A DNA stretch of 64,000 nucleotides from Micractinium sp. NFX-FRZ (Eukaryota > Chlorophyta > Trebouxiophyceae > Chlorellales > Chlorellaceae): NCBI GenBank assembly GCA_029339195.1, contig JAPTJF010000004.1, positions 470,998 through 534,997 on the forward strand, given 5' to 3'. The position numbers and the translations under genes were made by a program. The stretch's first letter is position 1. The number at the start of each line of letters is the position of its first letter. This document shows positions 14,601 through 53,764 of this stretch, piece by piece. The notes beneath the pieces are model-generated. The model was not told the DNA's origin, ran no database searches, and was given only the letters and a program-made list of their open reading frames with translations.

Positions 14601-17600
14601 GGCGGGTGCGGGCGGGCGGCAAGAAGGATTGTCAACCATCACCTTCCCCGCCCGCCGCCACGCGCGTGTGTGTGCTGACGTGCACCTGCCTGCTTGCAGG
14701 CTGCCAAGCTGGAGCGGGAGGCGCCCCTGATTGCTGACCGCTGCCACTAGCTCAACGACAGCTGGTTTACGTTTCCAACCGACTGGTTGCGCTGGAAGTG
14801 TTCCCACCTAATGTCGCCACACACCTGGTTGAGGCTGCTGAGCTGGAGCAGAGCAGCCCCTGACAATGACCGCTGCTTCTGATCAACGACAGGTGGCTTG
14901 CCTCCAACCAACAGTCACGTCCCATCTCCTCCTCCCATCAACTTCACACACCTGGTTGAGGCTGCTGAGCTGGAGCAGCCCCTGGTCGCTGACTGCGGTG
15001 TACCCCAGGCCCAGCTCCCGCAGCCCAGGCGCCTGCGGCATATAGGCAGGCGGTCAGGCAGGCAGGTTTGGCTGTGCACTTGTGCACCGGTGTGACCGTG
15101 TCCTTGTGCACCAGGCAAGGCTGCAGGGAGCACGACCTTGGGCGCCATCGCGACCTGGCTGTGCAGCTAGGGTGGGCCGGAGCGCAGCGGAGCGCAGCAG
15201 GCAAAGAGCAGCCGAAGCGTGCTCGGGCCGCGCTGCTGCGCTGCACAGCCCCAAGCACAACTCCCGAAGGACAGCACCAGGCCACAGTGCAGCCCTGTGC
15301 ATCCCCAGTGCAGCCAAGTGCACTAGCCAAGTGTGTGTGGTTGTGTGCGCTCACGTGCGTGCCCACCGCCGCGGCCGCCCGGTCCCCCGCCTGCAGGCAG
15401 CGGTCCAGGTTGAGGCTGCGCAGCTGCGACAGCTGGCACAGCAGCGGCGCCAGCGCCTCGTCGCTGCAGCACGCGCGGGCAGGCAGGGCAGGAAGGCGGT
15501 GGTGAGGGGTGAGACACACACGGGCAGCAGGCAGCAGGGCGGATGATGCGCTGCTGGCCTTCAGGGGCACCGCTTGCTGCCATGAGAGACAAGCAGACTC
15601 CCTGCAACATCTCCTGCTTCCCAGCCGCCGAGGCTTGGTTAGCTTATAATCCGGCAATGGCCAGCAGCCGGACAACAGTGGAAACCGTGGGCTACAGTAG
15701 GGAGCGCACCAGTGCCTGCCTGTCAGCTCTCAGCCCCTCTCAGACATCAGCATGCGCTGCCCACGCATGTGTGAAGCACACCTGACGTGCAGGCCCGTCA
15801 GGTTGAGGACCCGCAGGCTGGTGAGGGTGCACAGGTGGGCCAGGCCGGCATCCGATATCTGCAGGGCAGGGGGGAGGGGACGGGAGGGACCCAAGGCGGG
15901 GCAAGTACAGAGATGGGGGAAGCGGGTGTTTGGAAGCGTCAGCGGACAAGAGGCAGCTGTCCTCCCCTCCTGTGAATCACCTGCATGCCCACCAGGCCGA
16001 GCTCCTGGAGGCATGGCAAGCGCGCCAGCGCCGCCCCTCCCCTGCCCTTCCCTCGCTGTCTCTTCCCTAGCCGCTCTCCCTCCCCACCTTTGCGTGCTTG
16101 CTGTACTGCATGCTGTACTGCTTTCATCCCAGCCCAGAGCAGGAGAGACACGTGAGGGGGAAAGCAGCGCACCTGCGTGCGTGCCAGGCTGAGCTCCTGC
16201 AGGCGGGGGAAGCAGGCCAGCGTTGCGGCGTCCGCGTCGCCCACGCTGCTGCACCAGCCCAGGTCGAGCGCCTCCAGCTGGCGCAGGCGGGCGAGCAGGG
16301 AGAGCTCGCTGCAGGCAGGGCAAGTGGGGCAGGGCAAGCGGGGCAATGTAGATGGACTAGTGTGCACCGTGCTGGGATGCATGGTGCTGTGCCGCTGCTC
16401 CTGCCCCCAGCCTGCCGCTTCTGGGCTGTCACCCCCCCACACCGCCGCGCCACACACGCCAGAGCACATGCGCAGGCGTGCATCACACTGTGCGCGCCCC
16501 TGCACACCGTCCCTGCCACATGCCGGAAGCACCCACACTCAAGCAGGCATCACACCTCGTGTGCTCACCTGATGGCGTGGCACGTTTGCAGGTTGAGCGT
16601 GCGCATGCGCGTGAGGCCCGACAGGTGGCGCAGGCCCAGCGGCGTCACCTGCTCGCACCCTGCCAGCGAGAGCTCTTGCAGCGCAGTCAGGCCTGCATCG
16701 GCATGTGCAAGCGGCCAAGGGTGTGTGTGTGAAATATGGACACAGGTGCTGGGCATTACAAGGTGGGCGGGGCTGACTGGCACGCAGGAACACGGCGGCT
16801 TGCAGGCACAGGAACACGAACGCAGGCAGTGGGGCAGCATGGGCACCCGGCAGCCGGGCCAGCCCTCCATGCGCCAACTCAACCCACATGAGCATGTGTG
16901 CAGCTGGGCCAGCCCTGCCCCCGTCGGTGTTACTGCAGTACACGCCAAGCACAGCATGCACAGCATGCACCAAGCACAAGCACATGGGTGCACTGCTTGC
17001 CGCACCTCTCAGCTGGGCCAGCCCTGCGTCTGTCAGCTCCACACAATAGTCGAGGCGGAGGCGGGCCAGGCGGGGCGGGGCCCCCAGGGCCTCCAGAGCG
17101 TCGTCGGTGACCTGCAGGGGGGGCGTGGGGGCACATGAGGGCATGGCGGCATGAGGGCATGGCGGCATGAGGGGCATGCCGGCGGAGCTGGGCGACTCAG
17201 CACTCAAACGAAGGTGGAAGTGAAGGTAAAGCGGTGGGGCGCTCAGGCTGGCCCGGCGCCTTGTGTGCGTGGCCTGCAGGGGGGTGGGAGATGTGGGGGA
17301 TGGGACGGGGCACAGCGCTGCTGGCTGGTTCACGCTAAACAGGGGCAGCTGATGGGGGAATGGTGAACACAGCCAGTGGGATAAGGCAGCACCCTCCCTC
17401 CAAAGAAGACGTCACGCCACTTGACGACTACGGCTGCCCGCCCCCCTGCCCTCGCCCCACTCACCCCCGTCTTGCCCAGGTCGGCCGCCTCCAGGGAGGC
17501 GGTGGCCAGGCAGCGCAGCCAGGCGGGGCGCACCACCTCTGGGTAGGCCCCCAGGGGCAGGCTGAAGAAGTGCAGGGCCAGGCCTGAGAGGCGGGCAATG

Positions 17601-51889: not shown

Positions 51890-53764
51890 ATGCTTCTAGC
51901 ATCTCGAACCGCCCTGGCCGGCAGCGCCAGCGCCGGCTTGGGGCAGACACGCGCCCGGCACAGGCAGGGCCGGCCTGTGCCGGCAGTCAAGGTTGCTGCT
52001 GCCGCCCCTGACGCACCCCTTCGGCGATCGCGGCGATCCAAGGTCCTAGGAGCAGCAGCAGCGGCGGGTGCCTCCCTTGTGGGCCTGCTGTCGGCGGGGT
52101 CGCTACTGCTGGCGGCGCCAGGTGACCGCTGAGATCCTGCGGCTTCCTTGCCCCTGGGTTGTGTACACGTTTTCATGGGCGTCCTGAGGCCAGTGTTGTG
52201 GTGTCAATCACTCAATTGAGTTCACGACGCATGATAGCATCAGCGCCAGCATTGATTGCCCAGCCCGCCCGCCCGCCCGCCCCGCTCCGCTCCGCTCCGC
52301 TGGGCAACACCACCGGCTCCCCGGGCATCACAGGTGTCCAGTGCTTGCTCACCCAACACCTGCTTGTCAACTGAATTGCTGACAACGCCCCTGGCATGCC
52401 TCCGACCCTGCCCCCCATGCATGCAGTCGCGCTGGCCGACACGGCAGACTGCCTGGCCGCCAGCACTGGCGCCCCCTGCGGCACCCCAGCCGTAGCCGTC
52501 AGCTACACGCCGGGGAGCAGCGCCAGTGCGGGGGAGGAGGGCAAGACAGACGACAGGAAGGAGCGGGAGGCGCGGCAGCAGCGCACGCTGCGCGAGGCCC
52601 CCTCTGTGGTAGAAACGGAGGCGGCGGGGGTGGCCGAGGTGAGGGCTAGCTGGGGAGTGGCACCACTGAGTGTTCGGCGGCTGCTGTGCCTGCTCACCTC
52701 CCTGCATTCAGCACTCATCTGCCTGCCATGCTGTGCGGGGTGAGAACAAGGGAGCTCGCGAGCAAGTTGGATCAGCAAGGAGCTCAACTCTTGTTAACTC
52801 TGCTGCCGTGTGATCATCAAACCACTGGCCTGCCCTCCCAGCAGGCCCTGAGAAGAGCGCCACATGAAACACCAGCTGTCCCAAGAGTGCTGCCAGAGCA
52901 CTCTCAGCTGTTGTTCTTCCCACCGCCCTGCCTGCAGGCGCTCAAGGACGCCATCTGGCACAAGCTGAGTCGCAGGATGCTGCCTCAAGCAGCACATTTG
53001 TGACAATTCCCCCCCCTGCACTATTCCCCTTGCAGGCGTTGAAGGACGCCATCAAGCACAAGCTGGATGACATGAAGACGGCTGCCGAGAACAGCAGCCC
53101 TGCCCTGAAGGACGGAGGCCAGGAGACAGCTGATACGGCTGCCAGAGCGGCCTGGCGGGGCGCCGCCGGCACGACCACCTCCGGTGCCGAGGTGGCTGGC
53201 AGGGCGGCGGCCGAGGCGGCACGGCGGGGTGCCCCCGGGCTGCAGCAGGGCATTGAGCAGGCTGCCAAGGCAGCGGCTGGGCCGGGCAAGCAGGTGGCCG
53301 AGGCACCCAAGGGGGAGAGGGGGAGCGCTGGAGCAGCGGTCAAGGTGGCTGGCAACGCTGTCAGGGTGTCGCGCAACGCTGCCAAGGAGGTCACCTGCTG
53401 CATCAGGGTAAGTGTGGGGGTGATGCCGCTGCCTGCTGCCTTGAATGGCGGGGCTGGGAGGGGTGGCATCAGAGGTAGGGCCTGCTTTGTGGCGTGGGAG
53501 TGGCTCGACTGAGACCACCAGTCCTGCTGGGCGTGCCCTCACAGTGTGCATGGGCTGGCGCCGGGCCAGCCTGCCCCGCTGGGGGTGCTTGCTTCCAACA
53601 CTCCGCCTTGCCGTGGAATGGATTGCGCCTGCCTGATCCTTCCCTGCCACACTATTCTGCTCCCAACTCCCCCTGTGCAGGAGGGCGTCAAAGCGTGCTA
53701 CTCAGGAGGGCGCCAGGTCAGCTGCCACCCAGGCGAGCTCTGCACGGACGTTTGCCCCTGCTGA
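51890..53764 (+). CDS. Chloroplast LEA-like protein, hiC6 type (copy 1)
   Basis: This is a predicted late-embryogenesis-abundant protein of the Chlorella hiC6 kind, thought to protect proteins and membranes in cold or drying. Exons 51890-52121, 52427-52638, 53036-53407 and 53681-53764 encode 299 residues. The N-terminus looks like a bipartite plastid signal: a basic Ser/Ala transit region, then RRSRRSK and the hydrophobic stretch LVGLLSAGSLLLAAPG, ending VALA/DTAD, an AxA-type thylakoid processing site. The mature part has amphipathic Ala/Lys/Glu helix (AIKHKLDDMKTAAENS, AAGPGKQVAEAPKG) typical of group 3 LEA proteins. Unlike its neighbour it ends in a Cys-rich tail (ACYSGG, CHPGELCTDVCPC). 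A decoy copy of exon 3's start lies at 52938. Confidence 0.8.
52938..53067 (+). repeat. Decoy copy of LEA exon 3 start
   Basis: CAG/GCGCTCAAGGACGCCATC at 52938 parallels CAG/GCGTTGAAGGACGCCATC at 53036, offset 98 bp. Read in frame from the first copy, translation stops after about 21 codons, so only the second copy is productive. Confidence 0.88.

Follow-up and report, generated by a model that had tools for sequence, protein, structure and literature searches.

How introns come to hold copies of the exon edges that they adjoin is the question raised by a GC-rich, 64,000-nucleotide stretch of the genome of the green alga Micractinium sp. NFX-FRZ (G000:C4:470998-534997; this whole stretch is referred to below as the window). 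A sequence-only reading of the window had claimed that its introns repeatedly contain a copy of the adjoining exon edge together with the splice site, and had proposed that introns of this lineage may be enlarged, moved or newly created in this way at an unusual rate. The copies, termed exon echoes here, were confirmed in the window and in two other contigs, and they probably record small tandem duplications of DNA, with units of about 60-200 bp, which crossed an exon-intron junction and were absorbed by the intron.

Echoes were counted in the window and in an independent sample, comprising 200 kb of one contig (C1) and 70 kb of a second (C2), which together with the window represents about 0.5% of the genome (66.07 Mb in 838 contigs). 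Genes in the window and these 270 kb were modeled with a two-strand hidden Markov gene finder, whose training began from eight exon pieces and was repeated until convergence; it returned 68 genes (65 with a good score) and 600 introns with a median length of 256 bp, and the splice consensus of the models reads CAG/GTGNG at the donor and TGCAG/ at the acceptor (the slash marks the junction). As an internal check on these models, the local repeats between exons were found to have an offset divisible by three in 29 of 29 cases. Genes scoring 25 or less (3 of the 68) and called exons of zero length were removed from the counts, internal exons shorter than 30 bp were counted as intron in the comparison of exon edges with their own introns (556 introns) and in later counts, and low-complexity sequence, amounting to 2.4-2.7% of bases, was masked.

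At a score of at least 20, donor edges matched their own intron in 60 of the 556 cases and acceptor edges in 49, against 3.7 and 4.1, respectively, expected from length-matched introns of other genes. With 109 observed matches in sum against 7.8 expected, the earlier claim withstands the test on which it was to fall, namely that self-similarity might be no higher than that of random intron-exon pairs. The window alone contributed 20 such matches in 92 introns, 18 of them junction-spanning, and it is typical of the sample, since the share of introns with a match at a score of at least 18 was similar in the window (24/92), C1 (78/344) and C2 (30/120). When the edges were instead compared, as a control, with the following intron of their gene, 7 and 15 of 491 each matched (score of at least 20), which is 2- to 4-fold over the level of shuffled pairs. 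Direct repeats of that score were concentrated at offsets of 25-200 bp: in C1 their density per offset there exceeded that at 401-1600 bp by 30- to several-hundred-fold, and in C2 it exceeded that at 401-800 bp about 15- to 25-fold; in the masked window, none was found at offsets of 401-1600 bp. A visible duplication across a splice site was present in 88 of the 556 introns (about one in six), and 36 of the 65 genes carried at least one.

The anatomy of the copies points to the duplicated unit. The echo spanned the junction in register in 50 of the 60 donor cases and 42 of the 49 acceptor cases (92 of 109 in all), and the distance from the used junction to its echo (d) ranged from 63 to 558 bp, with 53 of the 92 falling within 85-130 bp. 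Three of the 92 with d above 260 bp were left out of the offset median and of the length test below; the remaining 89 have a median offset of 114 bp, with the central 90% at 78-199 bp. In 68 of these 89, the intron remainder of the unit aligned better at the true offset than when the offset was shifted (p=6.7e-8), indicating that the units, as a population, are tandem and include both exon and intron, the intron part having decayed further. Examples contain two copies and sometimes three, simple and short-period sequence being masked. A hard minimum unit of 63 bp was considered and is not claimed; boundary repeats shorter than this numbered 2 of 68, but short units cross junctions less often.

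The claim of intron growth is supported by length. A junction-spanning echo with d of at most 260 bp is present in 85 of the 556 introns; their median length is 344 bp, compared to 237 bp in the 367 introns with neither an echo nor a skipped small exon, and subtraction of d brings the former to a median of 225 bp (Mann-Whitney 2e-21 before and 0.41 after); echo-bearing introns are hence about one unit longer. Long introns give chance matches more room, yet chance would supply only about 8 of the 109.

These features would follow from a simple series of events. A tandem copy of a segment made up of exon end, donor and intron start would provide a gene with two donors, and one of intron end, acceptor and exon start would provide it with two acceptors. 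With the outermost site kept in use, the mRNA would be unchanged, the extra copy would lie inside the intron, and the intron would be longer by one unit. The intronic copy would then decay as intron while the used copy was held by selection on the protein, leaving the exon part of the pair visible the longest, as an echo. Each echo is apparently, then, a decaying copy of an exon edge and the protein apparently unchanged, although both the site in use and the constancy of the protein are read from the sequence. The DNA mechanism may be fill-in or end joining at staggered breaks, by analogy with mouse and human cells, in which breaks with 3' overhangs are repaired to give small tandem duplications like those seen here; the same report, as excerpted, ranks small tandem duplications as the most frequent kind of short (<100 bp) insertion in the human genome (excerpt of PMC8355091).

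Echoes located in the window, one of them beyond the interval of the sequence-only reading (the first), include the following:

4093..4136, minus strand: donor echo in a gene of 17 exons (239-5626), with the used donor at 4236 and the echo junction at 4102 (d=134); 80% over 44 bp, 26 of 34 exon bases matching
14818..14851, minus strand: LRR-gene echo of exon end and donor; used copy 14945-14978, 34/34 identical, intron 14558-14951; used junction 14951, echo junction 14824, d=127
15978..16030, minus strand: second LRR-gene echo, donor type; used copy 16170-16222, d=192, intron 15859-16172; 79% over 53 bp, 62/87 exon bases matching
20807..20869, plus strand: His-phosphatase echo, the abutting copy of a 63-bp tandem unit (20744-20806) with exon end and donor, 95% identical, intron 20786-21113; used donor 20785, echo 20848
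27933..27990, plus strand: eIF3m echo of the exon end at 27818-27875 (d=115, 78% identity over 58 bp), intron 27875-28282, with a third partial copy near 27895-27912 (by eye)
28657..28703 (approximate), plus strand: another donor-type echo of eIF3m, with its junction at 28695 and the used donor at 28491 (d=204), 32/38 exon bases
29890..29942 (approximate), minus strand: 122-residue gene echo of acceptor and exon start, with the acceptor in use at 29830 and the echo junction at 29937 (d=107), 33/42 exon bases, intron 29831-30347
36085..36250, minus strand: 190-residue gene, unit of about 109-111 bp, present twice in the intron (35998-36277) and again at the used exon end; 36085-36141 matches 36194-36250 at 96% over 57 bp (Tandem Repeats Finder period 109); donor 36277, echo junction 36166, d=111
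39225..39260, plus strand: GT61 donor echo, copy of 39149-39184, 92% over 36 bp, d=76, intron 39161-39440
40895..40980, plus strand: GT61 acceptor echo (intron 3' end, acceptor and exon start), tandem to the used copy 40984-41057, in 33-bp blocks of 91% (d=89) and 97% (d=77); used acceptor 41028, echo 40951; reads an in-frame TAG
43590..43647, minus strand: Miro acceptor echo (TGCAG and the first 53 exon bases); used copy 43467-43524, 58/58 identical, d=123
45162..45193, minus strand: second Miro acceptor echo, copy of 45078-45109, 88% over 32 bp, d=84; used 45105, echo 45189
50760..50850 (approximate), plus strand: donor echo of an ATPase-inhibitor-like gene, with the donor in use at 50656 and the echo junction at 50844 (d=188), 61/82 exon bases
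52933..52994, plus strand: acceptor echo of LEA copy 1; used acceptor 53035, echo 52937, d=98, 43/57 exon bases

Local direct repeats thus lie at or beside all five intervals delimited earlier in the LRR, phosphatase, eIF3m, 122-residue and 190-residue genes. GT61, for which two cases had been proposed, has two clear ones plus two weaker, and the proposed echoes of the ATPase inhibitor and LEA copy 1 are both present in decayed form. Three had been counted in Miro; two junction-spanning echoes were recovered there, and the third has no certain match, the nearest candidate being an intron repeat at 46100-46189 with d=52. Tandem units of exon plus intron are directly visible in three genes, namely the phosphatase (abutting copies of 63 bp at 95%), GT61 and the 190-residue gene. 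Of seven window proteins submitted to Pfam, LRR, His_Phos_1 (the phosphatase), PCI (eIF3m) and Glyco_transf_61 were recognised in four, and three had no match; among the latter is the ATPase-inhibitor-like protein, whose family name comes from the earlier note only. The window Miro protein is 84% identical to that of Micractinium tetrahymenae, against 78-80% for the C. vulgaris and C. sorokiniana proteins, in keeping with a Chlorella-type alga that is probably close to Micractinium.

Two LEA-like genes stand in tandem at 52231-57001 with an intron at the same place, and the gene finder fused both into one model. The echo of copy 1 scores 25.0 to its own exon and 15.0 to the exon of copy 2, and no echo was found in the paralogous intron of copy 2 (55293-55690; score of 12.5). 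Its closer likeness to its own exon suggests, for this one case, that the duplication took place after the two genes parted.

That the echoes might be assembly artefacts had been raised as an alternative in the earlier note, and gene-model artefact or ordinary low-complexity repeats can be added to it. The window does contain a run of N (30198-30230) and simple arrays, but low-complexity sequence was masked, the three contigs present a like pattern, the exon parts of the copies differ by 0-37%, and the offsets between exons were all in frame; given the last two observations in particular, assembly artefact is unlikely, and the alternative as a whole is highly improbable. The run of N itself, which may be an assembly gap or a withheld stretch, breaks a CAG-rich 34-bp minisatellite (30087-30314) that lies within a 122-residue gene intron. 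Other repeats of the window are a 10-copy array of 17 bp in a Miro intron (45293-45460), a TGCTG array in a phosphatase intron (20169-20355), and two short stretches (47912-48006 and 42882-42964) with 74-93% matches on many other contigs, which may be simple arrays or, for 42882-42964, a Gly/Ser-coding run.

Whether the echoes serve as alternative or mutually exclusive exon edges under selection was judged from their coding status. Mismatches between echo and exon are distributed near-evenly over the three codon positions (142/174/201 for donor and 103/112/121 for acceptor echoes), and only 20 of 151 gaps in the exon parts are multiples of three, from which it follows that the echo is not kept as coding sequence; the candidate explanation of a coding alternative or mutually exclusive exon with an open frame was rejected on these grounds. 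Offsets of the boundary repeats divide 29/20/19 by remainder modulo three, unlike those between exons, as expected if selection acts on coding copies only. The GT was intact in 38 of 50 echo donors and the AG in 29 of 42 echo acceptors, near the value for about 19% divergence, and the GT61 echo carries a stop. In favor of function, 28/50 echo donors and 24/42 echo acceptors reach at least the 5th percentile of used sites in the same set, and exon-derived echoes seemingly decay more slowly than native intron. On balance, function as exon edges is quite improbable. In Miro, the gene finder made mini-exons of two echo pieces, and seven aligned proteins of other algae are without them; the lack of a counterpart to these extra stretches agrees with non-use but is no proof, as a lineage-specific duplication would also be absent elsewhere.

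The creation of introns fared differently from their growth. In the AGGT model of tandem genomic duplication, attributed to Rogers (1989) and Hellsten (2011) in the excerpted part of a review (PMC3443670), with Drosophila cases in the excerpt of PMC2891723, an exonic AGGT segment is duplicated and the intron itself is one copy. The model resembles the present case in that the tandem duplication takes place within genes near splice signals; it is known elsewhere (excerpts of PMC3443670 and PMC4974935), and local duplication is frequent here. However, none of 581 introns had donor and acceptor flanks matching at an offset equal to its own length (score of at least 10), one reached a register score of 8 where 0.4 were expected by shuffling, and the largest echo distance was 0.79 of its intron. 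The creation claim, in this form, was not borne out, and origin of the introns by this route is very unlikely indeed. The claim that splice sites move likewise found no case among 193 repeats in which one copy was wholly exonic and the other on a junction.

A second route to new introns is that of the potato RdRp gene, where a boundary-crossing tandem duplication was described (Ma, Lan and Niu, 2016; PMC4974935, in excerpt). The unit crosses an exon-intron junction there as it does in 92 of 109 echoes here, and, as far as the excerpt tells, the echo joined a new exon-intron structure, whereas a longer intron is the simplest reading in the present genes. Were echoes spliced in as new small exons, each would split one intron into two. 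There are 12 candidates for this in all: 6 of 25 small exons (1-29 bp) that fall on echo junctions, and 6 of 9 similar neighboring exon pairs, whose intervening introns of 45-74 bp lie below the 5th percentile of intron lengths (98 bp). The geometry fits that described in the excerpt of PMC4974935, and two of the six small exons have both splice sites in the normal range. In each of the other four, one site falls short of the 5th percentile (a donor in three, at -1.7, -0.4 and 0.8, the percentile being 1.6, and an acceptor in the fourth, at 1.2, the percentile being 3.2), the called introns are near the 45-bp floor of the program, and the seven aligned Miro proteins lack the two extra stretches, which is expected also if these are lineage-specific. 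The candidates, as predicted from gene models, are weak and unproven, and gain of this type is possible but unlikely. Those in the window include 14825-14842, 15981-16004, 43625-43642 and 45163-45189. A promising place to seek echo-derived new exons is offered by C1 (151607-151955 of the piece 200001-400000), in which three near-copy exons were called with introns of 45 and 74 bp between them. A before-and-after comparison of GT61 within the genome found matches on other contigs that were only 31-46% identical.

The placement of the duplications can be compared with chance. A gapped scan of 315.5 kb, including 55.5 kb of intergenic DNA and leaving out contig ends beyond the first and last complete gene, yielded 205 events from 10,266 anchors, with 356 anchor matches against 16 in the shuffled control. 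Events of exon plus intron numbered 115 against 89.3 ± 7.2 by random placement (1.3-fold), intron-only events 45 against 52.0 ± 6.4, exon-only events 32 against 21.3 ± 4.3, intergenic events 7 against 30.0 ± 4.9 (about 4-fold poor) and mixed events with intergenic DNA 6 against 12.4 ± 3.5. The enrichment at junctions is mild and has the direction that selection on the used copy would give; it is no more than mild because a unit of the observed size, placed at random inside genes, crosses exactly one junction in about 41% of cases. The candidate view that exon edges are strongly special was abandoned when ungapped scoring, in which the simulated ratio to intron-only repeats was exceeded 4- to 6-fold, gave way to gapped scoring, with its 1.3-fold over random placement. 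Under gapped scoring, the excess of exon-plus-intron events is still 2- to 3-fold over the simulated equal-rate ratio; part of the ungapped excess was a detection effect and part remains. A control made anchor by anchor is in agreement: at a score of at least 20, anchors matched in 33/270 cases from exon end to intron (1.2 expected), 25/278 from exon start to intron (0.8), 15/155 from intron to intron at either end (1.0 and 1.8), 10/84 from exon to exon (3.8), 9/386 from exon end to sequence 300-520 bp away (3.2) and 1/124 in intergenic DNA (0.2).

Several observations weigh against the preferred reading of tandem duplication absorbed by introns. The gene models were computed from sequence alone, with the splice sites picked by the same model, so that the junctions are predicted ones. 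Exon-plus-intron and intron-only events stand at 115:45 (2.6, or 84:24 = 3.5 when thinned to one per 500 bp), whereas simulations with equal neutral rates give 1.0-1.3:1, leaving too few intron-only events; with ungapped scoring the gap is larger still (66:21 against 0.56-0.76:1 simulated). Young echoes, with an exon divergence below 0.05, make up 13% compared to 25% in a constant-rate simulation. The intron part was recognisable pair by pair (z>2) in only 25 of 89 echoes, and near-identical exon parts without intron homology occur in C1 (d=120, 46/48, z=-0.1; d=91, 24/25, z=0.1), such that some copies may not be full tandem units. Finally, the intergenic shortage is unexplained by a purely random process unless gene flanks are constrained; it may reflect constraint on untranslated regions and promoters or a gene-coupled process.

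The event ratio can be approached through decay. A simulation in which native intron decays twice as fast as the exon-derived echo gives a ratio of 2.2, or 3.8 when age-weighted, and the decay profile around the junction agrees, in bins of 5-22 pairs only. Native intron thus seems to decay about twice as fast as the echo. A tandem-repeat census (units mostly of 8-20 bp) counted 247 in about 159 kb of intron and 88 in about 101 kb of exon, and with repeats commoner in introns, native intron sequence may simply be more prone to slippage; the slower decay of the echo may alternatively come from its homogenisation or weak retention.

The same observations bear on a process tied to genes or splicing, such as breaks near exon edges that are coupled to transcription or splicing, or exon-templated repair, that would copy preferentially within genes. 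It would account for the intergenic and exon-plus-intron counts relative to random placement, for the contrast between intergenic and intron anchors, and for exon identity without intron homology in some pairs. Set against it, intron-only events are near random expectation, and compact intergenic DNA, of which 55.5 kb were scanned, may be largely untranslated region and promoter, purging duplications. Such a process has a small chance of being correct. Equally doubtful is an extended form, in which junction-crossing duplication is a gene-specific engine of intron growth tied to transcription or splicing and not random along the chromosome (hence the intergenic shortage), the echoes outlast native intron through being homogenised or partly retained, and a fraction turn into mini-exons; if true, intron growth would be a waiting room for intron gain.

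Small tandem duplication absorbed by introns has several known relatives. Introners, dispersed families that change intron content, are reported from green algae (excerpt of PMC9860276); green algae and altered intron content are shared with the present case, but the copies here are local. A search of the genome with the 301-bp Miro echo region gave one match, itself, the other echo introns not being searched singly, and a 17.1-kb query gave short matches only, though its own place was also not listed, so that a second copy may still exist. A Miro-alignment search of viral and genome contig collections confirmed no algal contig. Internal gene duplication, in which short segments are duplicated within genes, was reportedly described by Gao and Lynch in PNAS in 2009. 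The duplicated segments here are likewise short and within genes; 192 of the 205 events lie wholly inside annotated genes, with the extra copy in the same gene and near its source, and 6 more touch one. The difference is that most exon-edge copies here cross one junction and were apparently absorbed; the 36 of 65 genes affected were counted at thresholds that are not comparable. Work by Vaughn and Bennetzen from 2014, on rice, is cited in PMC8355091. Among the titles listed in literature searches, none concerned exon-edge duplications in Chlorella-type algae, which is not proof of absence.

The process is therefore known in kind, and what is added here is its density and its accounting as intron length. 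The echoes constitute a countable fossil record of intron lengthening, in which the duplication unit accounts for the extra intron length, and they turn the question of how introns lengthen without transposons into one of a measurable rate. They also provide many natural duplicated splice sites with which the choice of the spliceosome between twins can be tested, and a warning that gene finders can make false mini-exons of echoes. The findings also suggest that frequent tandem duplication need not create introns.

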